Origin: a virus
DNA length: 49,362 nucleotides
Strand: one strand, 5' to 3'
Virus record (IMG/VR): IMGVR_UViG_3300042540_001192
Location: 1 to 49,362 of that record
Positions 19,830-46,514 of the stretch are shown piece by piece; the stretch's first letter is position 1, and every line of letters begins with the position of its first letter. Below the pieces are notes generated by a model. It saw only the letters and a program-made list of their open reading frames with translations, was not told where the DNA came from and made no database searches. The position numbers and the translations under genes were made by a program.

Positions 19830-19863
19830 CGAGCCCCGCGGGATTTCGAGCCCGCGGGGCTCG
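19830..19863 (+). terminator. 13-bp GC hairpin after the GP88-like gene
   Basis: CGAGCCCCGCGGG and CCCGCGGGGCTCG pair perfectly around an eight-base loop, 22 bases after the stop. There is no T-run behind it, but position and stability fit an end of the first rightward transcription unit. Confidence 0.65.
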
Positions 19864-19878
19864 TGCATGCGCAGCCCC

Positions 19879-20112
19879 GGCGGGCAGGCGGGCAGGCGGG
19901 CAGGCGGCAGGCGGCAGGCGGGCAGGCGGCAGGCGGCAGGCGGCAGGCGGCAGGCGGGCAGGCGGGCAGGCGGGCAGGCGGCAGGCGGCAGGCGGCAGGC
20001 GGGCAGGCGGGCAGGCGGCAGGCGGCAGGCGGGCAGGCGGCAGGCGGGCAGGCGGGCAGGCGGCAGGCGGCAGGCGGGCAGGCGGCAGGCGGCAGGCAGG
20101 CAGGCGGGCAGG
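19879..20112. repeat. Tandem repeat of mixed 7- and 8-bp units (GGCGGCA / GGCGGGCA)
   Basis: Twenty-nine units follow each other without interruption, 13 long (GGCGGGCA) and 16 short (GGCGGCA), then a degenerate end. Units 17-22 and 23-28 repeat the order long-long-short-short-long-short exactly, a 45-bp duplication. Mixed 7/8 periodicity rules out a coding repeat. The plus strand is very G-rich, so G-quadruplexes or slipped replication structures are possible. Open frames across it on both strands are artefacts. Confidence 0.9.
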
Positions 20113-20146: not shown

Positions 20147-20384
20147 CCCCGAGCGTGGAAACCAGCGCACCCCCGACCGGGGAAACCGGCAGCCCCGGAG
20201 CGTGGAAACCAGCGCGCACCCCGGAGCGTGGAAACCCGGAGCGTGGAAACCGGCGGCGGCCTGGACGAGCCGCGGAGGCCGGCACCCCCGACCGGGCGAA
20301 CCGGCGGCGGCCTGGGCGGCTCGATGCCCCGACCGGGCGAACCGGCGGCAGCTCGACGTGGCCGGCACCCCCGACCGGGCGAAC
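20147..20384 (+). repeat. Gene-less array of eight 16-bp CCCCGAnCGnGGAAAC-type elements
   Basis: Copies start at 20147, 20171, 20193, 20219, 20235, 20286, 20327 and 20369, all in the same direction. The last three are the variant ending GGGCGAAC, and two of them lie in a 37-bp perfect direct repeat (20277-20313 and 20360-20396). No start codon with a useful frame follows these copies. The same element is found before most genes further right. Confidence 0.8.
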
Positions 20385-20394
20385 CGGCGGCGGC

Positions 20395-20613
20395 CTACGG
20401 GCGCCGGCGTGGCGGCTCCGCGGCGGCGCCCTCGATTTCGCGGAGCCGCTCCGGCCCGTACTGGTCGAGCACCCAGCCCCAATCGTCGCCGGCCCGCACC
20501 CCCTGGCCGTGCGCGTGGCGCCAAATCACGCCGGCGGCGGCCTCGACGGCATCGGGGCGCACCCCGGCCGTGGCAACCCAGTCGCACAATTTCGCGAGGT
20601 TTTCGATGATCAT
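20395..20613 (-). CDS. Possible small leftward gene, 72 aa
   Basis: ATG 20611-20613 opens MIIENLAKLCDWVATAGVRP and continues with a plausible globular sequence ending DQYGPERLREIEG. It is the only leftward frame inside the rightward region. Residue composition and the amphipathic helices look like a real protein, but it has no clear Shine-Dalgarno. A copy of the 16-bp element is antisense inside it (20562-20577). Confidence 0.45.
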   Translation of the reverse strand: MIIENLAKLCDWVATAGVRPDAVEAAAGVIWRHAHGQGVRAGDDWGWVLDQYGPERLREIEGAAAEPPRRRP

Positions 20614-20665
20614 GCCAGCATCATACCCGGCCGTGGAAACCGGCGCAACCCCCGACCGTGGCAAC
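20562..20665 (+). repeat. Three 16-bp elements (20562, 20626, 20650)
   Basis: Variants CCCCGGCCGTGGCAAC, CCCGGCCGTGGAAAC and CCCCGACCGTGGCAAC, plus-strand orientation, upstream of the second rightward promoter. None precedes a gene on the plus strand. Confidence 0.7.
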
Positions 20666-20734
20666 CGACAATCCCAACTGTCCACCACAACATCTAGCCT
20701 CCACGTCACGACAAACCACAAGATATGGGATCAC

Positions 20735-20764
20735 TTGACACTTGACGCATTCGGAGCCGATACT
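20735..20764 (+). promoter_or_regulatory. Sigma70-type promoter (rightward, second)
   Basis: TTGACA, an 18-base spacer and GATACT. Transcription would begin near 20771 and run through three 16-bp elements into the gene at 20848. It appears to drive the cluster of small genes. Confidence 0.65.
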
Positions 20765-20766
20765 AC

Positions 20767-20842
20767 CCCCGTCCGAGGAAACGTCGCCGCCCCGGACGTG
20801 GAAACGATAGGCTACCGGCGACGATAACCCCTCCGAGGAAAC
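20767..20842 (+). repeat. Three 16-bp elements in the leader of the small-gene operon
   Basis: Copies at 20767-20782, 20790-20805 and 20828-20842. The last contains GAGGAAAC and ends five bases before ATG 20848, so it supplies the ribosome binding site of that gene. Confidence 0.8.
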
Positions 20843-20847
20843 CAGTG

Positions 20848-21165
20848 ATGGCGACAACCAATGCAACCTACCCCCTGCGAAACGCATCGTCGCAATACGG
20901 TGCTTCTATGGGGCGGCCCGACACGCTGCCCGAAAACCCCGCCGCCCCGGTGCGGCTCTCGGTGGTTCGCCTGCGTTGGGTGGACGGCGATTATGACGCT
21001 GGCGGCGCCTACTGGGGGCACGTCGCGGGGACGTGGATATACCGGGCCTTGGGCGATGCCGATGACGGCGACACGGTCGCGGAACTGTACGTTCGCGCCG
21101 GGAGCCGAGAGGCGGCGAAGGCGGCGATCCGCGAGCGTGTCCCCGGTGCCAGCTTTTACAGATAG
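20848..21165 (+). CDS. Hypothetical protein, 105 aa
   Basis: Start ATG 20848 follows GAGGAAAC. A GTG three bases earlier is possible. The core VRLRWVDGDYDAGGAYWGH followed by WIYRALGDADD reads like a small alpha/beta domain, and AELYVRAGSREAAKAAIRER is an amphipathic helix. No catalytic residues recognised. First gene of the small-gene operon. Confidence 0.65.
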   Translation: MATTNATYPLRNASSQYGASMGRPDTLPENPAAPVRLSVVRLRWVDGDYDAGGAYWGHVAGTWIYRALGDADDGDTVAELYVRAGSREAAKAAIRERVPGASFYR

Positions 21166-21248
21166 TCGCCTGCCGGCGACAACCGGCCGGCGGGCACGTT
21201 GCCCCCGGCCGGCGGAACGATGACCCCGATAGAGGAAACGAGACGATG
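21163..21248 (+). repeat. Intergenic module, copy A
   Basis: Begins at the upstream TAG and ends at the downstream ATG. It holds the hairpin GTCGCC-TGCC-GGCGAC, a long GC hairpin (CCGGCCGG arms, one bulged C) and two 16-bp elements at 21203-21218 and 21224-21239. Nearly the same sequence recurs at 21654-21737. A nine-codon frame from 21220 ends in ATGA overlap with the next gene. Confidence 0.75.
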
Positions 21249-21656
21249 ACCAACTGGAAATACAGTTCGACGCAGAAGCGGGCGATCGACGCCGCCTGGG
21301 ATGCGGTGGCCTACCTGATGGATTCGACCGGCCACCGGGAGCCGCACCGGCTCCGCGAGGCGCTGAAGGTCGAGCGGCGCGAGCGGTCGTGCGTGACGGC
21401 GGCCAAGGCGCTGATCGTCCGTGGCTTCGAGGAGGGGATGGCCGACGATCCGCCGGCCTCGACGCTGGCCGGCTACTCCGAGGGCATCGCGGCCGGCGTG
21501 ATGCTGGGCGCCGACTACCAGCGGCGGGCGCTGCGATTCGGCCACGACTCCGTCGCCGGGTCGGTCGCCGGGAAGCTGCCGGCGCTCCTGGCGGCCGCGA
21601 CGGCGGCGCACGACGCCTACATCGCCCGCGGGCTGGAGGCGACGCAGGCGGGATAG
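21246..21656 (+). CDS. Hypothetical protein, 136 aa
   Basis: Start ATG 21246, six bases after the GAGGAAAC of its element. Largely helical: STQKRAIDAAWDAVAYLMD at the N-terminus, then a charged middle (REALKVERRERSCVT) and an Ala-rich C-terminal helix. No known domain recognised. It is flanked on both sides by copies of the same intergenic module. Confidence 0.65.
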   Translation: MTNWKYSSTQKRAIDAAWDAVAYLMDSTGHREPHRLREALKVERRERSCVTAAKALIVRGFEEGMADDPPASTLAGYSEGIAAGVMLGADYQRRALRFGHDSVAGSVAGKLPALLAAATAAHDAYIARGLEATQAG

Positions 21657-21737
21657 TCGCCAGCCGGCGACAACCGGCCGGGGGCGCGTGACCCCCGGCC
21701 GGCGGAACGATGACCCCGAGCGAGGAAACCAGCGATG
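21654..21737 (+). repeat. Intergenic module, copy B
   Basis: Near-copy of 21163-21248. The first hairpin is GTCGCC-AGCC-GGCGAC. The second is an uninterrupted 11-bp stem, CCGGCCGGGGG with CCCCCGGCCGG. Changes between the copies keep the pairing, so the RNA structure seems to be under selection. Elements lie at 21693-21708 and 21714-21729. Confidence 0.75.
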
Positions 21738-21971
21738 ACGAAAACCGAGCGCGACCTACTGACCGAATGCGAGGCGCTGGCCGTCGAAACCGGCCACGAC
21801 CTGCGGAACCTGATCACCGATGCCGAGAGCTACTGGCGTGGCCCCGGCCGGGCCGTCGAGCCTCGTCGGTGGCGATCCCGTGCCGATGCCTGCCGGCGGC
21901 TCCTGGCCCGCATGCCCGACGTGATCGGCGGCCTGCGAGCCTGGGCGGCCGAGGAGGTCGGAGCGTACTGA
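21735..21971 (+). CDS. Hypothetical protein, 78 aa
   Basis: ATG 21735 sits five bases after GAGGAAAC. Helical, basic protein (TKTERDLLTECEALAVETG; RRWRSRADACRRLLARMP). Its short helices and charge would fit a small nucleic-acid or protein-binding factor, but nothing specific is recognised. Confidence 0.6.
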   Translation: MTKTERDLLTECEALAVETGHDLRNLITDAESYWRGPGRAVEPRRWRSRADACRRLLARMPDVIGGLRAWAAEEVGAY

Positions 21972-22037
21972 CCCGGCCGCCCCTGGCCCCGCCGGCGCCC
22001 GTGGCCGGCGGCGAAGGGGATGCCGGCGGCGAGCCTG

Positions 22038-22053
22038 CCCCGAATGTGGAAAC
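22038..22053 (+). repeat. 16-bp element, GTGGAAAC type
   Basis: CCCCGAATGTGGAAAC, 23 bases before ATG 22077. A separate purine-rich motif, GACGAGG, stands between it and the start. Confidence 0.75.
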
Positions 22054-22076
22054 CCGAGAGACGAGGAACCCGGATC

Positions 22077-22316
22077 ATGGCAACGAAGAAGAAGACCTAC
22101 CGCATCCGCCGCGAGTGGACGGTCGTGATGGAGTCGTGGATCGAGGTCGAGGCCGACAGTGTGGAGGCGGCCTGCGCGGCGGCCGTCGCCAACGACGACT
22201 ACGACGACCAGAGGATCGCGGACGACAGCGACGGCCCGACCTATGTCGGCCGCATCGAATGCGGCGGGCGGGAGATCACGGTGCCGGTGCGGTACGACGG
22301 CGACGGGATGCGGTGA
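22077..22316 (+). CDS. Hypothetical protein, 79 aa
   Basis: Starts MATKKKTYRIRREWTVVMES. A beta-strand pattern followed by a helix rich in acidic residues and Ala (EVEADSVEAACAAAVA) and a last strand. This strand-helix-strand plan is repeated in the products of 22367 and 23602, which may be relatives. Function unknown. Confidence 0.65.
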   Translation: MATKKKTYRIRREWTVVMESWIEVEADSVEAACAAAVANDDYDDQRIADDSDGPTYVGRIECGGREITVPVRYDGDGMR

Positions 22317-22344
22317 TCCGCCCTCGTCCACAACAACCCCCAAC

Positions 22345-22360
22345 CCCCGACCGGAGAAAC
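22345..22360 (+). repeat. 16-bp element acting as RBS
   Basis: CCCCGACCGGAGAAAC. The GGAG inside it is the only Shine-Dalgarno for ATG 22367, six bases downstream. Confidence 0.8.
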
Positions 22361-22366
22361 CAGACC

Positions 22367-22579
22367 ATGCCCAACTACCTGATTCGCAGCGACGGCATCG
22401 ACCCCGAGGAAGTGTGGAGCGCCCCCGACGATGCCACGGCGATCGCCTGGGCGACGGAGACGCTGCTCGACTCCGAGGCCGAGCCGGGCGAGGAGATCGT
22501 GCTCGTCCGGGTCGAGGACGACTACCGGCAGGCCGAGGAACACGTCGCCACCCTGACGATGCCGGGAGGTGCCAAATGA
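22367..22579 (+). CDS. Hypothetical protein, 70 aa
   Basis: MPNYLIRSDGIDPEEVWSAP, then DDATAIAWATETLLDSEAE, then IVLVRVEDDYRQAEEH. Small strand-helix-strand acidic protein. Similar in plan to the neighbours at 22077 and 23602, where a D/E-rich segment leads into an Ala-Trp-Ala helix. Stop overlaps the next start (ATGA). Confidence 0.65.
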   Translation: MPNYLIRSDGIDPEEVWSAPDDATAIAWATETLLDSEAEPGEEIVLVRVEDDYRQAEEHVATLTMPGGAK

Positions 22580-22875
22580 CCCCGACCGTCGAAACCAGCG
22601 GGTACCGCATCTCGGCCCGTGTCGTGATCCAACCTGGCGACTCGTTCAAGGTGGCCGCCGGCCCCTACTACCGATGCCACGACGGCACGAAAATCCCCCT
22701 GGCCGCCCGCGGCACGTTCCGGCTGGCCGAGGTGATTCGCCACCGCTCGCGGGTGCATCTCCTCGCCCACGGCGCCGAGGGGTGGGTGCTCCTGCACGTC
22801 GAGGGGCGGCGGCGGTCGCCCGTCCCCGGCCTGGTGCCGCGGCCATACCGTGTGGCGAAACGGGTAAAGGGTTGA
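22576..22875 (+). CDS. Hypothetical protein, 99 aa
   Basis: ATG 22576-22578 overlaps the previous stop. Codons 2-7 are made of the 16-bp element (T-P-T-V-E-T). The body has a small beta-barrel look: VVIQPGDSFKVAAGPYYR, then GTFRLAEVIRHRSRVHLLAH and LLHVEGRRRSPVPG. This could be an SH3-like fold; no catalytic residues are visible. A promoter overlaps its stop. Confidence 0.6.
   Translation: MTPTVETSGYRISARVVIQPGDSFKVAAGPYYRCHDGTKIPLAARGTFRLAEVIRHRSRVHLLAHGAEGWVLLHVEGRRRSPVPGLVPRPYRVAKRVKG
22580..22595 (+). repeat. 16-bp element within coding sequence
   Basis: CCCCGACCGTCGAAAC is codons 2-7 of the 22576 gene, read as P-T-V-E-T. It may have been added to an older shorter start. Confidence 0.7.
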
Positions 22876-22900
22876 CTCCGTTCTGGTCGATGCTTACGAT
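22872..22900 (+). promoter_or_regulatory. Sigma70-type promoter (rightward, third)
   Basis: TTGACT, exactly 17 bases, then TACGAT. It overlaps the end of the 22576 gene and would start RNA near 22907, before the element at 22922. Confidence 0.65.
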
Positions 22901-22921
22901 ACGACAGAACACGACAACTGC

Positions 22922-22937
22922 CCCCGAGCGAGGAAAC
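22922..22937 (+). repeat. 16-bp element acting as RBS
   Basis: CCCCGAGCGAGGAAAC, ending five bases before ATG 22943. No other purine-rich motif is available. Confidence 0.8.
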
Positions 22938-22942
22938 GACAA

Positions 22943-23203
22943 ATGAGCGACCTGATTGATCAGATTGACGCGGGCGAGGCGGCGGCTGCCATCCGCGGCA
23001 TTGTTCAGCGCTGGCGTGATTGCACGCAGGTCGCTGGCCTCGCCAAGCGTTCGACGCAGGCGAGCCTGGTCGAGCAGGCTCCCGCTGTGGTCGCCGCGCA
23101 GGTCGAGGCGATTCTGGAGGCGGCAGCGTACCTGTCTCAGGGCGATGACGACGACCGCAAGTCGCTTGCTGCCGCCGTGGCCGAGGTGCTTTGCAAGAAA
23201 TGA
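22943..23203 (+). CDS. Hypothetical protein, 86 aa
   Basis: All-helical prediction: LIDQIDAGEAAAAIRGIVQR, a central AGLAKRSTQASLVEQAP and a last long Ala/Glu helix ending LCKK. Acidic patch GDDDDRK near residue 68. First gene after the third rightward promoter. Unknown function. Confidence 0.65.
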   Translation: MSDLIDQIDAGEAAAAIRGIVQRWRDCTQVAGLAKRSTQASLVEQAPAVVAAQVEAILEAAAYLSQGDDDDRKSLAAAVAEVLCKK

Positions 23204-23240
23204 CAACCCTGGCCGCGCGGCCTGGGCATGACCGAGAGAA

Positions 23241-23256
23241 CCCCGAGTGAGGAAAC
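23241..23256 (+). repeat. 16-bp element acting as RBS
   Basis: CCCCGAGTGAGGAAAC, six bases before ATG 23263. Confidence 0.8.
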
Positions 23257-23262
23257 GAGATC

Positions 23263-23508
23263 ATGGGAGCGATGAAGCGATTTTACGAGGAAGCCGCCGA
23301 GGCGGGCCGATGCCCGTTGACGCTGGAGACGTTCGACTACCTCGATGACGTGGAGTGCCAGCACCAGCTTGATTGGATCGGCTACTGCGAGCACGACGGC
23401 GAGGACTGCATCACCCTGGAGTCGGCCCGCCGGCTCGTGGCCGAGGGGTTGGCGAACGACGAGATCACGACGTTCGTGGAGTGTTTCGGAGACTACAGCC
23501 GGGCCTGA
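23263..23508 (+). CDS. Hypothetical acidic protein, 81 aa
   Basis: Strongly acidic: RFYEEAAEAGRCPLTLETFD, YLDDVECQHQLDWIGYC, EHDGEDCITLES. Four Cys are present but not in a zinc-finger spacing. The charge would suit a DNA-mimic or an inhibitor, a guess only. Confidence 0.6.
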   Translation: MGAMKRFYEEAAEAGRCPLTLETFDYLDDVECQHQLDWIGYCEHDGEDCITLESARRLVAEGLANDEITTFVECFGDYSRA

Positions 23509-23568
23509 CCGGCCAGCCGCCCCGGCTCGTTGCCGCGGCGGTTCGATTGAGCGATGATTTCACCAGAC

Positions 23569-23584
23569 CCCCGGACGGGGGAAC
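23569..23584 (+). repeat. 16-bp element, GGGGGAAC variant
   Basis: CCCCGGACGGGGGAAC followed by a separate GGGAGAGAAGAG before ATG 23602. Confidence 0.65.
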
Positions 23585-23601
23585 CGAGAGGGAGAGAAGA
23601 G

Positions 23602-23838
23602 ATGACGACCGCATACGAATGGACGATCCGCACCGATGCCGGCATGACGACCGTCACGGCCCCAGACGCCGACGCCGCTGCGGTGGCCTGGGCTGCCGGC
23701 GACGGAGCGGCGAACGTGCATGACCTGGACTCGCTGATCGCGCACATCGAGGGCATCGACGGCGCGTGGCTGTGGATCGAGAGCACGATGGCGCCGGACG
23801 GCGAGCGGGTCTATGCCGGCCGGACGAATATGCCCTAA
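23602..23838 (+). CDS. Hypothetical protein, 78 aa
   Basis: TTAYEWTIRTDAGMTTVTAP forms a beta hairpin, followed by DADAAAVAWAAGDGAANVHD (helix) and a C-terminal strand. Same plan as the 22077 and 22367 products, suggesting a small family multiplied in this operon. Function unknown. Confidence 0.65.
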   Translation: MTTAYEWTIRTDAGMTTVTAPDADAAAVAWAAGDGAANVHDLDSLIAHIEGIDGAWLWIESTMAPDGERVYAGRTNMP

Positions 23839-23854
23839 CGACCCGCCCTGGTCC

Positions 23855-23925
23855 CCCCGGCCGGCGAAACGCTGGCACGGGGGCGACGGGCGGGCCGCCT
23901 GGTGGCGACCCCGGAGCGTGGAAAC
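23855..23925 (+). repeat. Two 16-bp elements between small genes
   Basis: CCCCGGCCGGCGAAAC at 23855-23870 and CCCCGGAGCGTGGAAAC at 23909-23925. The gene start follows at 23947 after a separate GACGAGGAGAG motif. The gap 23839-23946 holds nothing else. Confidence 0.75.
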
Positions 23926-23946
23926 CTAGAGACGAGGAGAGAGACG

Positions 23947-24570
23947 ATGACGACGAACGAAATGACTTGCGACACTGCCGCGGCCAAAGGCCGCGGCCTT
24001 CATTACAAGAGCCGAGCCTGGGCCTCGTTGGCCGAGGATGCCGACTGGACGGGAATGTGGCCGGCGATCGACCGCGACGGCAAGCTGACCGGGCAGGCTG
24101 TCGATTCCGACGAGACTGCGGTCGGCTGGCTGAATGTCGATGACGAGGCAATGATTCCCGAGGACGAGGCCCGCGCCGGCGGCTGGAAGATCGACGCCGA
24201 CGAGGGGCGGGCCGAGCCGCCGGAACCGGCCACCGTCGAGTTCGCCATGGCCGACGAGACGATCCGCATCTGCGGCGGCCTGGAGGATTACGCTGGGGTG
24301 GAGCACCCCGAGATGCAGCGGGCCTGCGCGGCCTACCGGAGGGCGGCGATTGCGGGGCTGGAGGACGATTCGCGGACGGGCCGCCTCGTGGCCGAGGGGC
24401 CGCGCGGGCAGCGTATCCTCCACTCCGCGTGGGCCGGCGCCCGCTGGAGCTACTCCTGCGGTGCCATCGGCACGACGGCGACGTTGACCGAGGACGAGAA
24501 GGCAGCGGTCGGTGCGGCCCACGACGCCGGCCTGGCAGCGGCGCTGAAGGTGATTCAAGGGGCCGAGTGA
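23947..24570 (+). CDS. Hypothetical protein, 207 aa
   Basis: The largest product of the small-gene operon. The middle has an acidic two-strand region (GWLNVDDEAMIPEDEARAGG), then MADETIRICGGLEDYAG. The C-terminal half is helical and ends ALKVIQGAE. RTGRLVAEGPRGQRILHSAW and YSCGAIGTTATL are its most distinctive stretches. No family recognised. Confidence 0.65.
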   Translation: MTTNEMTCDTAAAKGRGLHYKSRAWASLAEDADWTGMWPAIDRDGKLTGQAVDSDETAVGWLNVDDEAMIPEDEARAGGWKIDADEGRAEPPEPATVEFAMADETIRICGGLEDYAGVEHPEMQRACAAYRRAAIAGLEDDSRTGRLVAEGPRGQRILHSAWAGARWSYSCGAIGTTATLTEDEKAAVGAAHDAGLAAALKVIQGAE

Positions 24571-24571
24571 C

Positions 24572-24625
24572 CCCCGGCCCGTAGCAACCAGTGTTCGATA
24601 ACCCTGCCGCCCCGAGCGGCGAAAC
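24572..24625 (+). repeat. Two 16-bp elements before the 24634 gene
   Basis: CCCCGGCCCGTAGCAAC at 24572-24588 and CCCCGAGCGGCGAAAC at 24610-24625. GAGGAGAG after the second provides the Shine-Dalgarno. Confidence 0.75.
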
Positions 24626-24633
24626 GAGGAGAG

Positions 24634-24855
24634 ATGATGAGCGACGATTACTGCTACGAAACGACTCCCTACGGAGTCGAGAAACGCGGACGAAAATTCG
24701 TGGTGCGGCAGATGTGGTGGGGCAAGGATATTTCGACCCACAAGACGCAGGCCGAGGCCGACGCGGCGTGCATCGAGGCGGCAAGGCAGGATGGTTTGCT
24801 GCGGAGGGTCAGGCTGACACCCCGACCGGCGAAACGAAAGGCGGCCAAGAAATGA
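24634..24855 (+). CDS. Hypothetical basic protein, 73 aa
   Basis: Starts MMSDDYCYETTPYGVEKRGR, then KFVVRQMWWGKDISTHKTQ and an Ala-rich helix. The C-terminal 15 residues are very basic and are partly encoded by a 16-bp element (24820-24835, read P-R-P-A-K). A nucleic-acid-binding tail is possible. ATGA overlap with the next gene. Confidence 0.6.
   Translation: MMSDDYCYETTPYGVEKRGRKFVVRQMWWGKDISTHKTQAEADAACIEAARQDGLLRRVRLTPRPAKRKAAKK
24820..24835 (+). repeat. 16-bp element inside coding sequence
   Basis: CCCCGACCGGCGAAAC near the 3' end of the 24634 gene and 16 bases before ATG 24852, whose own Shine-Dalgarno is AAAGG. Confidence 0.75.
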
Positions 24856-25091
24856 TCGACGAGATCGAATCCCTGACCTCCGGCGAGTGCAGGTGGATCG
24901 GGCGGCACGACGTTCACGTCTACTGCCATGCCCCGATGGTGGAAACGCTGATGCCGACCGGCAGGATGGGCTGGCAGCCTGGGCCGGCGAGCTACTGCGT
25001 CATCTGCCCCGAGGCGGGCCTCGAGCACGGGGAGTGGGTCGATTCCCCCCGTGCGGCGAAACTGGTCGAGAAGATTCTCAAGGCCGGCTAG
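24852..25091 (+). CDS. Hypothetical Cys/His-containing protein, 79 aa
   Basis: MIDEIESLTSGECRWIGRHD, then HVYCHAPMVETL and SYCVICPEAG: three Cys-containing turns and several His, which could form a zinc site. Two 16-bp elements are part of the coding region (24931-24946 read P-M-V-E-T; 25047-25062 read P-R-A-A-K). Unknown function. Confidence 0.6.
   Translation: MIDEIESLTSGECRWIGRHDVHVYCHAPMVETLMPTGRMGWQPGPASYCVICPEAGLEHGEWVDSPRAAKLVEKILKAG
24931..24946 (+). repeat. 16-bp element inside coding sequence
   Basis: CCCCGATGGTGGAAAC, in the middle of the 24852 gene. No gene start follows. Confidence 0.65.
25047..25062 (+). repeat. 16-bp element inside coding sequence
   Basis: CCCCGTGCGGCGAAAC, near the end of the 24852 gene, in a different reading phase from the copy at 24931. 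Confidence 0.6.
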
Positions 25092-25132
25092 GCGACTAGC
25101 CGAGACAAAGGTAGGCTACTGCCACGCACAAT

Positions 25133-25147
25133 CCCGTGCGTGGAAAC
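25133..25147 (+). repeat. Element, GTGGAAAC type
   Basis: CCCGTGCGTGGAAAC, 17 bases before ATG 25165; a full AAGGAGG lies between. Confidence 0.7.
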
Positions 25148-25164
25148 CCAAGGAGGATAGTGCG

Positions 25165-25473
25165 ATGATTGATCTGGTGAGCATCAGCGTGACGGACACG
25201 ATCTGGACGGAGTTTTCGGGCTGCTCGCATGGCGGGCCATTCGCCATCGTGAAGGGTGGCCCGGTCATGGCGATCGGAGACGATGGCACGATCGCCTACC
25301 GCGACCAAGGCGGCAGCATCGAGACGTTCCACGAGCTTGGCGTGCATTCGGCCCACAAGACGGAGGCCGAGGCGTGGGATGCCGCGGCCTGGCGCCTCGC
25401 CAGGATCGCCGCCGAGGTGACCGCCAAGGCCGCCGAGTGCCGGGCGAAGGCGGAAACCGAGGTGGCGGCATGA
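25165..25473 (+). CDS. Hypothetical protein, 102 aa
   Basis: Strong Shine-Dalgarno AAGGAGG. VSISVTDTIWTEFSGCSHGG and AIVKGGPVMAIGDDGTIAYRD suggest a small beta domain; the C-terminal 45 residues are an Ala/Glu/Lys helix likely to coil. ATGA overlap with the next gene. No function recognised. Confidence 0.65.
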   Translation: MIDLVSISVTDTIWTEFSGCSHGGPFAIVKGGPVMAIGDDGTIAYRDQGGSIETFHELGVHSAHKTEAEAWDAAAWRLARIAAEVTAKAAECRAKAETEVAA

Positions 25474-25727
25474 TCCGCGACATTGTTCGCGCCGTGCTGG
25501 TGCTGGTCGTGCTGGCCGTGGGCTGCGAGATACTCGCGGTTCACCGCGCACCCCCGACCGTAGCAACCGCAGGGCAGGTGGGCTGGCAGCAGACGGCCCA
25601 CTACAACGCCGGCGGGTACTACCCGTACCCGCCGGCGGCCCCGGCCGTGGAAACCGTAGGCCCGCTGCGCAAAGTGGCCCGCGAGCTTGTAGACTTGACC
25701 GAGGCCGCGATAGGAGTAATCCGATGA
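25470..25727 (+). CDS. Small membrane-anchored protein, 85 aa
   Basis: N-terminal hydrophobic segment VRAVLVLVVLAVGCEILAV (residues 6-24) then a Pro/Tyr-rich outer part (YNAGGYYPYPPAAP) and a C-terminal helix. Cys after the hydrophobic stretch is not a clear lipobox. Two 16-bp elements are in frame (P-P-T-V-A-T and P-A-V-E-T), so the linker may be built from elements. Confidence 0.6.
   Translation: MIRDIVRAVLVLVVLAVGCEILAVHRAPPTVATAGQVGWQQTAHYNAGGYYPYPPAAPAVETVGPLRKVARELVDLTEAAIGVIR
25552..25567 (+). repeat. 16-bp element inside coding sequence
   Basis: CCCCGACCGTAGCAAC within the linker of the 25470 gene. Confidence 0.7.
25639..25654 (+). repeat. 16-bp element inside coding sequence
   Basis: CCCCGGCCGTGGAAAC, second copy in the 25470 gene, same reading phase as the first. 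Confidence 0.7.
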
Positions 25728-26011
25728 AGATTGACACCGACAAGATGCTGACCATCGAGCAGGCCGCCGAGGCTCTCGGAGCGCCGAACAAGAGGCCCGT
25801 CTACCGGGCGCTGGCACGAGCCGCGGAGGCGGGCCGGGTGCTCTCCGTCTCGCTCTTCGGCAAGACGCTGGTGCCGGTCGCGAACATCAAGGAGTTGAAG
25901 GAGTACTACTACCCCTACTACTCTGAGGCGCACCAGCGGATGGTCAAGAAGTGGGGGGCGGCCGGCGGCACCGCCAGCGGCGTCACGAAGAAGTCTCGCC
26001 GGCAGTCTTAG
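25724..26011 (+). CDS. HTH DNA-binding protein (excisionase/MerR-like), 95 aa
   Basis: MLTIEQAAEALGAPNKRPVY at residues 8-27 followed by RALARAAEAGRVLSVSLFGK is a winged-helix excisionase-type motif. The C-terminal part is Tyr-rich, then basic (TKKSRRQS). Last gene of the rightward operon, converging with the HNH gene by a 29-base overlap. It might regulate the operon or act as recombination directionality factor with the integrase. Confidence 0.65.
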   Translation: MKIDTDKMLTIEQAAEALGAPNKRPVYRALARAAEAGRVLSVSLFGKTLVPVANIKELKEYYYPYYSEAHQRMVKKWGAAGGTASGVTKKSRRQS

Positions 26012-26282
26012 CCGAGTGGCACGACCGGCAGAGGACTTGCAGGCCCGAGAGCGGCGTGGCCTCGGCGGCCTGCTCGAGCGGCTTCCGCTCGATGTGATCG
26101 ACGTGACAGTCGCCTGGGCGGTGCAGAACCAGCCCGCAAGCCTGGCAGGTCGCCGCGTCACGGGCGATCACGGCCTGCCTGACCCGCTGCCAAGCAGCCG
26201 ACCCATACCCCCGTGCGTGGGAACTAGGGCGACGGTCAGGCGGCCGGGGGACGCGGCGGAATGTTGGCCGACGCCACGGCAT
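25983..26282 (-). CDS. HNH endonuclease
   Basis: 99 aa from ATG 26280-26282 with GGAGGGG upstream. CQACG, then DCHVDHIERK and VLCRSCHSAK give the Cys-x-x-Cys / HxxH-type / CxxCH pattern of HNH nucleases. HNH proteins of this size often assist cos cleavage by terminase; here it lies about 8 kb from terS, so either packaging or homing is possible. A 16-bp element lies antisense in it at 26209-26224. Confidence 0.8.
   Translation of the reverse strand: MPWRRPTFRRVPRPPDRRPSSHARGYGSAAWQRVRQAVIARDAATCQACGLVLHRPGDCHVDHIERKPLEQAAEATPLSGLQVLCRSCHSAKTAGETSS
26209..26224 (+). repeat. 16-bp element antisense to the HNH gene
   Basis: CCCCGTGCGTGGGAAC on the plus strand. It is the last good copy of the cluster and lies beyond the end of the rightward genes. 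Confidence 0.55.
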
Positions 26283-35588: not shown

Positions 35589-36278
35589 CTATCCGATCCC
35601 GCATTCCCCGGCAAGAGGAAACATCGTGGCCTGGGTGTCCTCCCTGAACATCCTCGCCTCGCGCTGGTATCGCTTCACCACGATCTCCAGGCACTCGCCG
35701 TAGGTCAGGAACGGAAAGTCCTTGCGGTACTTCATGGCGTCTCGCCACCAGTTGGTGCTGTCGATGCTGTCGATGCGGCGAACGTGGGAGTACGCCCGCA
35801 AAGCCCAGCCGTGGACGTGGAAGTCCTCCGGCACGTTGTCGCAGGCCCACCGGACGAAACGCTCCTTGCCCTGCCTGGGGGGCTTCAGGCCGATGCCGAT
35901 CCAGCGGTTGCGCTCGCCGGCGATTGCGATCAGGTCGCGGAGAAGCTCCGGCGGGTCGGTGTCATGGATGGTGGGGAACCCAAGGGAAAACGATTCGTAG
36001 TTGGCGAGGCTTTTTCGCCAGTCGCCGCCGATGTCGTCGAGGCCAGCGATTGCGTCGGCGTGACCAATCCACCGCTCGGCCCACTCAGAGTAAGCCCCCA
36101 GGTCTATCTGCTTGCCGGTCGTAAACGCCGAGTAGGCGCCGCTGTCGATCAGGAGCCGCCGGTAGGTGTGTTGGTAGCGATCCAGAAACGGGTCGTAGAG
36201 GGCAAACGAGAACAGCACCGGCATCCCGACGGCGTGCTCGGCCTGCTGCTGATTGCCGGGGCTGGCAAGGTAGATCAC
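35589..36278 (-). CDS. dpdA: DpdA-like TGT-fold DNA transglycosylase
   Basis: 229 aa from GTG 36276-36278, overlapping the queC stop (GTGA). VIYLASPGNQQQAEHAVG at the start, then LLIDSGAYSAFTTGKQIDLG with the D-S-G-A-Y-S of phage DpdA/TGT-like proteins, AIAGLDDIGGDWRKSLANYE, and WIGIGLKPPRQGKERF and EDFHVHGWALRAYSHVRRID from the barrel. It should exchange guanine in DNA for a 7-deazaguanine. Next to QueC and QueE, the link to preQ0-type modification is strong. Zinc-site Cys are not evident. Confidence 0.75.
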   Translation of the reverse strand: MIYLASPGNQQQAEHAVGMPVLFSFALYDPFLDRYQHTYRRLLIDSGAYSAFTTGKQIDLGAYSEWAERWIGHADAIAGLDDIGGDWRKSLANYESFSLGFPTIHDTDPPELLRDLIAIAGERNRWIGIGLKPPRQGKERFVRWACDNVPEDFHVHGWALRAYSHVRRIDSIDSTNWWRDAMKYRKDFPFLTYGECLEIVVKRYQREARMFREDTQATMFPLAGECGIG

Positions 36279-36871
36279 GCTCCAGCCTCCCGCCGTTCGA
36301 CGCAGGCACCGCAGGCGCCGCACGGCTCATCGCCGCCCTCGTAGCACGACCAGGCCAGCGAGAAATCCACGCCGGCGGCACGGCCAAGCTCGACGACTTC
36401 GCGGCGCGTCTTGTGGGCGAATGGCGCCTGCAAGCTGGCCCCGCAGCCAGCCGTGACCGCGACTGCCATCGTCTCCAGAAACCTGGGCCGGCAGTCTTGG
36501 TAGACGGCGTGGTCACTGGCGTGGCACCCGATCAGCACAGACTTGTCCCGATGCGTCGATGCCCACGATGCGGCGATAGAAATCATCACGGCGTTCCTGT
36601 TCGGGACGACGGTCGCCGACTGGGCGGGGTCATCGTGCTTTTTGCCGGCGGGGATGACGCCGGCCCCCGTCATCGGGCATGGGGGAAACGCCCCGCTGAT
36701 GTCCACGATCATGTGTCGCCTTTTGTATGCGTCGGCGATGCGCTCTGCGTGCTCGATCTCCCTGGCGTGCTTCTGGCCGTAGAAAAACGTCAGGCACAGC
36801 ACGTCCGTCTTTGCGCACGACGCAAGCATGACAAGGGAGTCGAGGCCGCCGGATAGCAGGATGACGCTCAT
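36275..36871 (-). CDS. queC: QueC, 7-cyano-7-deazaguanine synthase
   Basis: 198 aa from ATG 36869-36871 (ATGA overlap). SVILLSGGLDSLVMLASCA is the PP-loop, AQSATVVPNRNAVMISIAAS is the family's V-P-x-R-N motif, and LAWSCYEGGDEPCGACGACV is the zinc-binding Cys cluster near the end. It turns CDG into preQ0 with ATP and ammonia in the cytoplasm. It is preceded by the 108-aa protein and QueE and followed by DpdA, one tightly coupled operon. Confidence 0.92.
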   Translation of the reverse strand: MSVILLSGGLDSLVMLASCAKTDVLCLTFFYGQKHAREIEHAERIADAYKRRHMIVDISGAFPPCPMTGAGVIPAGKKHDDPAQSATVVPNRNAVMISIAASWASTHRDKSVLIGCHASDHAVYQDCRPRFLETMAVAVTAGCGASLQAPFAHKTRREVVELGRAAGVDFSLAWSCYEGGDEPCGACGACVERREAGA

Positions 36872-37194
36872 ATCGCCGGATATCCATCTCGGAGGGCAGT
36901 CGAAGTAATCCACCCGTGCGTGTCGGCCCGACCCATGACCGTCACCTGAACCCCAGGCACGTCCTCCGACAACTGCTCGGCCAGTCGCTCGACCGACACC
37001 GGCTCGAGCAGGCGGCGGCGGATGGCGGCGTCGATCTGGAGCACGTCATAGAACTTCTTCGTCACGGCCTCAAACACGCACTTCACGACCATAACGTCCC
37101 TGGCGATCTCGCAGACGCCGTTCATCTCGTCTGTCTCGTACCGCCAGCGGTGCGTCATGCTGAGAGACAGAACCGGCAGAAGCTCGTTGCTCAT
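36868..37194 (-). CDS. Conserved 108-aa protein in the que operon (copy 1)
   Basis: Occupies the place where queD would be expected, between queE and queC, with ATGA overlaps on both sides. It lacks the zinc-binding His and catalytic Cys of QueD. Typical stretches are RYETDEMNGVCEIARDVMVV, FYDVLQIDAAIRRRLLEPVS and VERLAEQLSEDVPGVQVTVM. A paralogue of equal length is encoded at 48258-48584 beside a second TGT-like gene. It may be a factor of the deazaguanine pathway. Confidence 0.7.
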   Translation of the reverse strand: MSNELLPVLSLSMTHRWRYETDEMNGVCEIARDVMVVKCVFEAVTKKFYDVLQIDAAIRRRLLEPVSVERLAEQLSEDVPGVQVTVMGRADTHGWITSTALRDGYPAI

Positions 37195-37772
37195 GGCAAC
37201 CCCCATGACTTGTGGCACTGAGGCGAAAACGTCCAGTCGTGGTTTTGCCTCACCCAATCAAGGCAGAAGGCAAGTGATTCGCGGTTTCCGGCCATCGGCT
37301 GAACGTACTGATGCCGAAATGACGTGCTGGAAAAGTCGATCGCAGCCACGTCGAGTCCGTTGAGCATGGGGACGATCTTGATCTCGTCGCCGCGCCGCAG
37401 CCAGAAGTCCGGCGAATGCGGCGAAACAGAAACCCACCCCCAGTCGGCTGAAACTGGGCGGATGCCGCTGGTTGCCAGGCAAGGGATGAAGCCGGCCGAC
37501 CACAACGCGGCCATGAGCGGCTCGAGGTCTTGGTCAGTCGGCTCGCCGCCGGTGACCCAGGCATACCTTGCCCGATTGTTGGCGTGTCGGTGCTCCAGGC
37601 ACTCCGAAGCAATCTCAACCGCGGAGCACTCTCGCCAGAAAGCGTAGTTCGTGTCGCAGGCGGGGCAGGCGACCGAGCAGCCCGCAAGGCGAATGAACAC
37701 CATCGGCTCGCCGACCAAGGCGCCCTCGCCTTGGATCGTCCAGTACACGCCTTGTCGGGCTAGCTTCAGCAT
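37191..37772 (-). CDS. queE: QueE, 7-carboxy-7-deazaguanine synthase (radical SAM)
   Basis: 193 aa. VYWTIQGEGALVGEPMVFIR precedes the cluster motif RLAGCSVACPACDTNYAFW (C-x3-C-x2-C), then YAWVTGGEPTDQDLEPLM, the second radical-SAM motif, and SGIRPVSADWGWVSVSPHS. It converts CPH4 to CDG. Start is preceded by two AAGG-ATG stretches. First gene of the que-dpdA operon. Confidence 0.92.
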   Translation of the reverse strand: MLKLARQGVYWTIQGEGALVGEPMVFIRLAGCSVACPACDTNYAFWRECSAVEIASECLEHRHANNRARYAWVTGGEPTDQDLEPLMAALWSAGFIPCLATSGIRPVSADWGWVSVSPHSPDFWLRRGDEIKIVPMLNGLDVAAIDFSSTSFRHQYVQPMAGNRESLAFCLDWVRQNHDWTFSPQCHKSWGLP

Positions 37773-44651: not shown

Positions 44652-45227
44652 TCAAGACAATTTCCGCGGCCTCCCGATTTTCCCGCCTGCGGCCTGCATG
44701 GCCCGCACCTTGGCGACGTTCGCAAGGCACGACCGGCGCGACAGGATGAACTGGCGGCCGACCGTCGAGGACCGCCGCTGCCCCCAGGCCACGCGACCGA
44801 CGATCTCCCCTCGGGCGACCAGCCGGGCGATGAACGAGGGGTGGACACTGAGTATTTTCGACGCTTCGGCCACGCCGATTGCGTCGTCGAAGGAGATCGG
44901 CGCCTCAACGGCCCTCAGAGCCTTCAAGACGGCCGGACGGAGGTTGAGGTAGGAGCGGGGCCGCCGGCCGACCGGATCGCTGGGATCGGACTTTCTGTCC
45001 TCGTAGTCGATGTAGTCCCGTTCGCACTCCTGGCCGTCGAAAATCGTTTGCCGGCGGCTGCCGGCAACGGAATAGACCTGATCAAGGACGTGGGCCGTGA
45101 GCAGCCCTTTCGCCAGCATTTTGGCCGGGGTGGCGAAATGCACCCCCATGATCGCCGCGGCCTCGAAGGCGCCGACAGCCTGACGTGTCTCGGGAGCCTC
45201 CCTTCTCAGTTTCCCGCGGGTTTTCAT
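44652..45227 (-). CDS. DNA-binding protein with two HTH segments, 191 aa
   Basis: Two similar halves: QAVGAFEAAAIMGVHFATPA with KMLAKGLLTAHVLDQVYSVA, and DDAIGVAEASKILSVHPSFI with ARLVARGEIVGRVAWGQRRS. Each is an excisionase-like HTH. Basic tail GGKIGRPRKLS. It begins the long leftward operon and faces the rightward integrase unit, the place for a lysogeny or early regulator. Confidence 0.65.
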   Translation of the reverse strand: MKTRGKLRREAPETRQAVGAFEAAAIMGVHFATPAKMLAKGLLTAHVLDQVYSVAGSRRQTIFDGQECERDYIDYEDRKSDPSDPVGRRPRSYLNLRPAVLKALRAVEAPISFDDAIGVAEASKILSVHPSFIARLVARGEIVGRVAWGQRRSSTVGRQFILSRRSCLANVAKVRAMQAAGGKIGRPRKLS

Positions 45228-45665: not shown

Positions 45666-46514
45666 ATGACGCTTGAGGAACTTCTGGATGGGTACTACTC
45701 CCCGCTCAAAGGGGTATCCGCTCGCACTGAGAAACTCTATCGCTACACCATTCAGGCGTTCGGCGAGCACCTCGGCAGGCCGCCGAACGTGCATGACCTC
45801 GAGGAGCTGACGGTTGCGAGGTTCTTGGCGGCCCGGCTCCGCGACAAGGCCGTCGCCACTGCCGCCAAAGACAGGACGCAGGTTCATGCGCTTTGGGAGT
45901 TCGCGGCCCGCCGCGGCCTGACCGACAAGTGGCCGCAGATTCGCCGCATCCGCGTGCCGGAGCGGGTGCCGCAGGCGTGGCTGACTGACGAACTCCAGAG
46001 ACTGCTTGACGCCGCCGGCCAGCGCGAGGGCGTGATTGCCGGCGTGCCCGCTCGCCTGTGGTGGCGGTCGATGATCCTGGCGTGCTACGAGGTCGGCGAG
46101 CGGTGCGCGGCCATGCTGGCCGTCGAGTGGCGAGACGTGACGCCCGCCGGCATTCTGCTGCGCGCCGAGACAAGAAAGGGGGCGACGCGCGACCTCTGGC
46201 GGCCGATCTCGCCGGCCTGCCACGCGGCCATCGAGGCGACGAGGACGAGCCGGGTGCTGGTCTGGGAGTGGGATCGCTGCTACACGAACCTCTGGCGGCA
46301 CCTGGGCATGATCTGCAAGGCCGCTGGCCTCCCGAACGACCGCTGGAGCAAGTTCCACCGCATTCGGAAGACACACGCCTCCTACGCCGCGGCGGCGGGC
46401 CTGGACGCCCAGCGGCTGCTCGACCACGCCTCGCCGAAGACGACGAGGGCATACCTCGATCCTCGGATCGTCCGGCCGCCGTCGGCGCCTGACGTGCTGC
46501 CGAAGGTGGGGTAG
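45666..46514 (+). CDS. Tyrosine recombinase (phage integrase)
   Basis: 282 aa. N-terminal SAM-like domain (LEELLDGYYSPLKGVSARTE; LTVARFLAARLRDKAV). Catalytic part: ACYEVGERCAAMLAVEW with the first Arg, LRAETRKGATRDLWRPIS with Lys, KFHRIRKTHASYAAAAG with H-x-x-R, LDHASPKTTRAYLDPRI with the His and the nucleophile Tyr. All six active residues appear present. Integration of the phage in the host genome is expected; the att site is not visible. Confidence 0.9.
   Translation: MTLEELLDGYYSPLKGVSARTEKLYRYTIQAFGEHLGRPPNVHDLEELTVARFLAARLRDKAVATAAKDRTQVHALWEFAARRGLTDKWPQIRRIRVPERVPQAWLTDELQRLLDAAGQREGVIAGVPARLWWRSMILACYEVGERCAAMLAVEWRDVTPAGILLRAETRKGATRDLWRPISPACHAAIEATRTSRVLVWEWDRCYTNLWRHLGMICKAAGLPNDRWSKFHRIRKTHASYAAAAGLDAQRLLDHASPKTTRAYLDPRIVRPPSAPDVLPKVG

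Follow-up and report, generated by a model that had tools for sequence, protein, structure and literature searches.

A 16-bp element anchored to gene starts in one operon of a siphophage group

The element and its operon

The viral DNA analysed here, IMG/VR record IMGVR_UViG_3300042540_001192 (49,362 nt; "the window" means this whole stretch), has its terminase, portal, and capsid genes, which are of siphophage type, on the minus strand. About 15 small genes at 20.8–26.0 kb form a block that is read rightward, in the opposite direction to nearly all other genes of the window. A 16-bp, non-palindromic element with the consensus CCCCGANCGTGGAAAC is repeated along this operon. The pattern CCCCGANCGNGGAAAC, with at most two mismatches, matched the plus strand 31 times and the minus strand 0 times, and all matches lie within 20147–26224; 100 dinucleotide shuffles of the window gave a mean of 0.98 matches and a maximum of 4. 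With the start-proximal copies at three mismatches (20827, 21203, 21693, and 22069) the count rises to about 35, which agrees with the roughly 34 plus-strand copies reported in an earlier reading made from the letters alone (the sequence-only reading). The look-alikes which that reading listed outside the operon, and doubted, are three-mismatch noise found on both strands, and two of its positions were off by 1–2 bases. No Rfam family matched the window above its gathering score.

Gene starts were taken from our own gene caller and inspection, and distances were counted from the end of the element to the ATG. On this basis, 13 of the 15 gene starts of the operon have a copy, which spans the ATG, follows it immediately, or lies upstream of it by at most 21 nt; the starts at 25470 and 25724 have none. 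The sequence-only reading had placed the element at almost every gene start. This is correct for the starts, but start association covers only about half of the copies, while the others are in leader arrays or are extra copies in gaps, and a few are inside genes.

All copies in the window are on the plus strand. Eleven elements of 16 bp each form a leader array at 20147–20665 (copies at 20147, 20171, 20194, 20220, 20235, 20286, 20327, 20369, 20562, 20625, and 20650), in a region that is largely non-coding on this strand. Three elements (20767, 20790, and 20827; 20767–20842) precede the gene at 20848–21165, and the last ends 5 nt before its ATG. Three pairs follow. The copies at 21203 and 21224 (21203–21239) are spaced by 21 nt, and the second ends 6 nt before the ATG at 21246 and provides GAGG; the second copy of the pair 21693 and 21714 (21693–21729) ends 5 nt before the ATG at 21735; and the second copy of the pair 22038 and 22069 (22038–22084) contains the ATG of the gene at 22077–22316. 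The element at 22345–22360 ends 6 nt before the ATG at 22367 and provides GGAG. At 22580–22595 the element occupies bases 5–20 of the gene at 22576–22875, just after its ATG, and encodes the extension TPTVET.

Farther along, single elements end 5 nt before the ATG at 22943 (22922–22937), 6 nt before the ATG at 23263 (23241–23256), and 17 nt before the ATGs at 23602 (23569–23584) and 25165 (25132–25147). Of the two copies 23855, which lies in a GC hairpin, and 23910 (23855–23925), the second ends 21 nt before the ATG at 23947, and a weak copy at 24573 is followed by another at 24610 (24573–24625) that ends 8 nt before the ATG at 24634. The element at 24820–24835 is in the end of the gene at 24634–24855, 16 nt before the overlapping ATG at 24852. 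Copies inside genes are those at 24931 and 25047 (24931–25062) in the gene at 24852–25091, and those at 25552 and 25639 (25552–25654) in the gene at 25470–25727. The last element (26209–26224) is downstream of the last gene of the operon, and it is likewise the last site in the relatives L090 and L126.

Relatives and anchoring to translation starts

Relatives were gathered by scanning viral contigs for the pattern and by searching with TerL. Over 36 loci from 33 IMG/VR records, a refined profile gave 916 sense and 25 antisense matches (742 distinct in all, after identical sites were removed). In each phage of this uncultured siphophage group, one small-gene operon has 7–43 copies on its sense strand, and the other genes run mostly in the opposite direction. 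The bias was also present in loci fetched with TerL, for which the motif was not used: L003, L043, L047, L075, and L078 have 9–35 copies on one strand, with reversed-sequence controls near zero in that scan, and the TerL-derived records G024 and G025 gave 14:1 and 21:0 by strand. The core (CCCCG and AAAC) is the same in all phages, and positions 7, 10, and 11 drift. Since stretches of 70–98% identity are common to many records, the 33 records belong to a single phage group and do not count as independent cases.

The position of the element is tied to translation starts and not just to gaps between genes, and a copy can itself serve as the Shine-Dalgarno sequence or contain the start codon. A copy between 20 nt inside and 45 nt before the start was found for 316 of the 426 element-strand genes (74%), as against 6 of the 331 opposite-strand genes (2%). 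Offsets peaked at +5 to +7 (110 seen, about 17 expected), a figure to be read with the offset bias that the ATG-including pattern, by which most loci were found, brings to one to three copies per record. A second peak at −8 (43 seen, 6.5 expected), in which element positions 9–11 are the ATG, and the wider offsets are free of that selection. In gaps of at least 100 nt, the first 40 nt toward the start hold 0.90 copies per gap and the first 40 nt toward the stop 0.32. Within coding sequence, copies number 2.7/kb immediately upstream of an abutting start, as opposed to 0.47/kb elsewhere. The sequence-only reading had proposed a start-associated system of its own kind, and had named as the check a profile of the copies, run over both strands of related phages, and as the counter-evidence equal strands or copies in unrelated host DNA. 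The 916:25 ratio in the 36 loci, the 74% versus 2% of genes, and the offset peaks favour its proposal; the strands are unequal, and the genomes scanned (see below) have chance-like matches only.

The bases of the element differ with the distance to the start. Of the copies 4–8 nt from the ATG, 60% have A at position 10, which gives the Shine-Dalgarno motif GAGG, while only 6–7% have A there among the copies that are 9–39 nt from an ATG or have no ATG nearby. CCCCG and AAAC are kept in the copies that serve as Shine-Dalgarno sequences. The overlap, together with the anchoring, might suggest an extended ribosome-binding signal that is read by the host ribosome directly, with no trans-acting factor. 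We consider this very unlikely. Most copies lack the Shine-Dalgarno core, the distance to the ATG varies and placement after the ATG occurs, and within a phage the opposite-strand genes go without the element. Moreover, a separate Shine-Dalgarno motif was found for 96% of element genes and 55% of opposite-strand genes (both rates are approximate, as the gene caller rewards such motifs), and thus the element is an additional signal.

The family of the gene at 22576–22875 gives another view of the anchoring. Its ATG overlaps the upstream gene, and 12 of the 17 homologues have the element at bases 5–20, in frame, and gain MTPTVET-like residues though their upstream sequences differ. The other five use a different start and have no element after the ATG. 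The protein, which is conserved in the operon, is predicted to have a confident beta fold, and structure comparison gave no convincing match.

Retention of the element and the gene next to a changing upstream sequence is also what would be seen if the elements were recombination seams, i.e., repeated homology at gene boundaries that is kept mainly for the exchange of small-gene cassettes. Left ends of homologous blocks fell within 30 nt before an element in 36% (10.5% expected), right ends fell just after one in 32% (7% expected), and 76 of 155 block ends were within 50 nt of an operon gene start (33.6 expected), but alignments run through any shared element, so part of this clustering is automatic. 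Nearly every gene boundary of the operon has an element anyway, and therefore the clustering is compatible with recombination and does not prove it. As an account of the element, seams seem quite improbable to us: the sense-strand rule, the Shine-Dalgarno and ATG variants, and the leader arrays are left unexplained.

Surroundings, candidate factors, and host

A sigma-70-like promoter (TTGACT-N17-TACGAT) lies at 22872–22900 on the plus strand of the window, 21 nt upstream of the element at 22922. Across 430 kb, the promoter pattern had 60 matches on the element strand, of which 38 are followed by an element at most 80 nt downstream, and 2 matches on the opposite strand. Because such promoters are upstream of the first elements, those copies are likely to be in a transcribed leader. 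In several phages, the leader arrays come after long tandem repeats and before a promoter-like site and the first genes. In the window, the tandem repeat is GGCAGGC (about 31 copies, 19883–20112, plus strand), directly upstream of the leader array; L086 and L114 have different long tandem repeats at the same place. Many related contigs seem to break at this tandem-repeat site before the leader array. By eye, a second conserved motif, roughly TTCTCACNNNCCAACTGTCCAC, stands between leader arrays and the first promoter in several phages.

Hairpins occur between many neighbouring copies. For copies less than 120 nt apart, the start-to-start spacing was odd in 125 cases and even in 35 (pooled, with strict deduplication, 20–120 plus tandem), and hairpins with 5-nt loops account for the odd spacing in longer spacers only.

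Two phage proteins are candidates for a factor that acts on the element. The last gene of the operon (25724–26011, plus strand) encodes a small winged helix-turn-helix (HTH) protein, MerR/Xis-like, which may bind DNA. This family is present in 22 loci and is the most widespread protein of the operon, and its model gave weak Foldseek matches to TraN, Xis of phage Pukovnik, and RacA. The second candidate is a phage CsrA (35380–35550, minus strand; PF02599, E 2.6e-19), which was found in 15 of the 24 records searched, including most element-bearing records longer than 35 kb, and also in relatives with contigs that apparently stop short of the operon. The winged-HTH protein would act on DNA, and CsrA on RNA.

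Other genes of the window were also annotated. QueC, a QueE-like radical SAM protein, and their neighbours (35589–37772, minus strand) suggest synthesis of 7-deazaguanine (preQ0) and possibly DNA modification. A tyrosine recombinase (PF00589) is encoded at 45666–46514 on the plus strand, with an HTH_17 protein nearby at 44652–45149. Downstream of a GP88-family protein (PF17338; 18977–19807, plus strand) lies a GC-rich hairpin, at about 19830–19865, that resembles a terminator.

None of the named phages in our collection matches the operon, and the element is absent from them. Among 84,980 bacterial genomes, the element was found at 53 single-copy loci, which are scattered and chance-like, and 392 planctomycete genomes gave only scattered, chance-like matches on both strands. 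We therefore rejected an origin from a host element. A TerL search of the 84,980 genomes for prophages found no relative. Weak relatives of a conserved flanking protein are present in 8 of the 392 genomes of Planctomycetota (the phylum of Schlesneria, G044) and in 0 of 398 genomes of Pseudomonadota (the phylum of Azospirillum, G047), and thus a planctomycete host is plausible.

How the element may work and what it resembles

Start association suggests a role in translation. Our tentative preference, a little short of an even chance, is that the copies are binding sites, on the sense strand of the mRNA, for a trans-acting regulator of the operon. Each copy in a 5′ leader or initiation region would be a sequence-specific site for one factor, which would most likely be encoded by the phages and shared by the whole group. 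Through its occupancy of the initiation region, or through a change in mRNA stability, this factor would co-regulate the translation of all cistrons of the operon, and the leader arrays would serve as high-occupancy or decoy sites. An antisense RNA from the phage was considered and rejected: the window has no minus-strand match at two or fewer mismatches. Since RNA structure gave no signal either, a protein that reads the sequence is the most likely factor.

Several points weigh against the mRNA sites. The unpaired probability was 0.505 in the real flanks and 0.502 in shuffled ones, so no RNA-structure signal is seen, and a hairpin inside the element was rejected because the helix pairs 1–12, 2–11, 4–9, and 5–8 are not among the strongest couplings. 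Leader arrays are often upstream of the promoter-like site and thus may not share the operon mRNA. The phage factor is a candidate only. CsrA would be the natural one, yet GGA is at element positions 11–13 in only 47% of the copies. Finally, asymmetric sites in one orientation are also typical of stoperators, which work at the DNA level (PMC9283540).

A stoperator-like system is accordingly the chief alternative to mRNA sites, though on balance an unlikely one. The element would then be an asymmetric operator for a phage repressor, possibly the winged-HTH protein, which blocks transcription initiation and elongation. Stoperators of cluster A phages such as L5 and TipsytheTRex are likewise asymmetric and oriented with transcription, occur in more than 20 copies per genome, and often lie in short intergenic spaces (PMC9283540, PMC6550527). 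The wide distribution of the HTH family (weak as its fold matches are), the arrays that adjoin promoters, and the missing RNA-structure signal all fit, and the tyrosine recombinase makes lysogeny possible. However, anchoring to start codons in long gaps and inside abutting genes is needless for a transcription roadblock, and because of this anchoring we prefer mRNA sites. The element is also limited to one operon, unlike cluster A stoperators, its cognate repressor is only a candidate, and no prophage was seen, as TerL relatives were not found in the bacterial genomes. The 13-bp stoperator consensus GGTGGMTGTCAAG had 5 matches in the window (2.3 expected), which are scattered, none of them in the operon.

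CsrA targets have paired sites near starts, and CsrB is a multi-copy array. The paired copies 15–31 nt apart near starts and close to Shine-Dalgarno sequences, the leader array, and the CsrA gene in these phages resemble both, as they do RsmA sites, so that the element might be a canonical site of the phage's own CsrA. This is hardly probable, and we rejected it because the GGA core is not conserved: even anywhere in positions 8–14, GGA is present in just 59% of the copies, and three array copies of G018 (CCCCGACCGTAGCAAC) have none. The most constant bases are instead CCCCG and AAAC.

A rather doubtful variant of mRNA sites is a modular start tag that spreads by itself: the sense-strand mRNA element, set at nearly all cistrons of a gene-cassette region, would put newly acquired genes under a common post-transcriptional regulator, and its repeats would also supply homology for cassette exchange. 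The GAAAC end recalls a CRISPR (clustered regularly interspaced short palindromic repeats) unit, but a CRISPR-like or solitary repeat was set aside for the irregular spacing and the start anchoring.

To our knowledge, the start-associated sequences (SAS) of cluster K mycobacteriophages have been on record since 2011, without a known function. The element works like a SAS, but it is not a member of that family; it is real, group-wide, and start-anchored. Both are short, non-palindromic, and essentially in one orientation a few nucleotides before starts, in the non-structural part of the genome, and both are essentially absent from the host (here, from the genomes sampled). Both overlap the Shine-Dalgarno sequence yet are conserved beyond it. 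As the sequence-only reading had held, the sequences differ: the SAS consensus GGGATAGGAGCCC, with two deviations allowed, had 0 matches in the window. The element has 16 bp, about 30 copies, and tandem leader arrays, as opposed to 13 bp and 11–19 copies for SAS, and its offsets are wider, including positions inside and after the ATG. SAS contains AGGAG, which pairs with 16S rRNA, whereas GAGG or GGAG is found here mainly in copies 4–8 nt from the ATG. The phage group is different, and the host is probably of another phylum. About half of the cluster K SAS have upstream 17-bp inverted repeats (extended SAS, ESAS), which carry promoters in Adephagia (PMC11373665). Here, promoter-like sites and hairpins are upstream of some elements, and not a fixed 17-bp repeat; this arrangement, in which a promoter and an inverted repeat come before the tag and the start, is reminiscent of ESAS plus SAS, although the sequence is unrelated.

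By the consensus comparisons, the element is unrelated in sequence to both of these mycobacterial-virus systems. We found no published description of it, in line with the sequence-only reading, which had called it undescribed. With a second, sequence-unrelated system of start tags, tagging the starts of one phage region probably arose more than once. Among the more than 700 distinct copies in the 33 records, the fixed bases (CCCCG and AAAC) can be told from those given over to the Shine-Dalgarno sequence or the ATG, and with this element it becomes possible to test what reads start tags.

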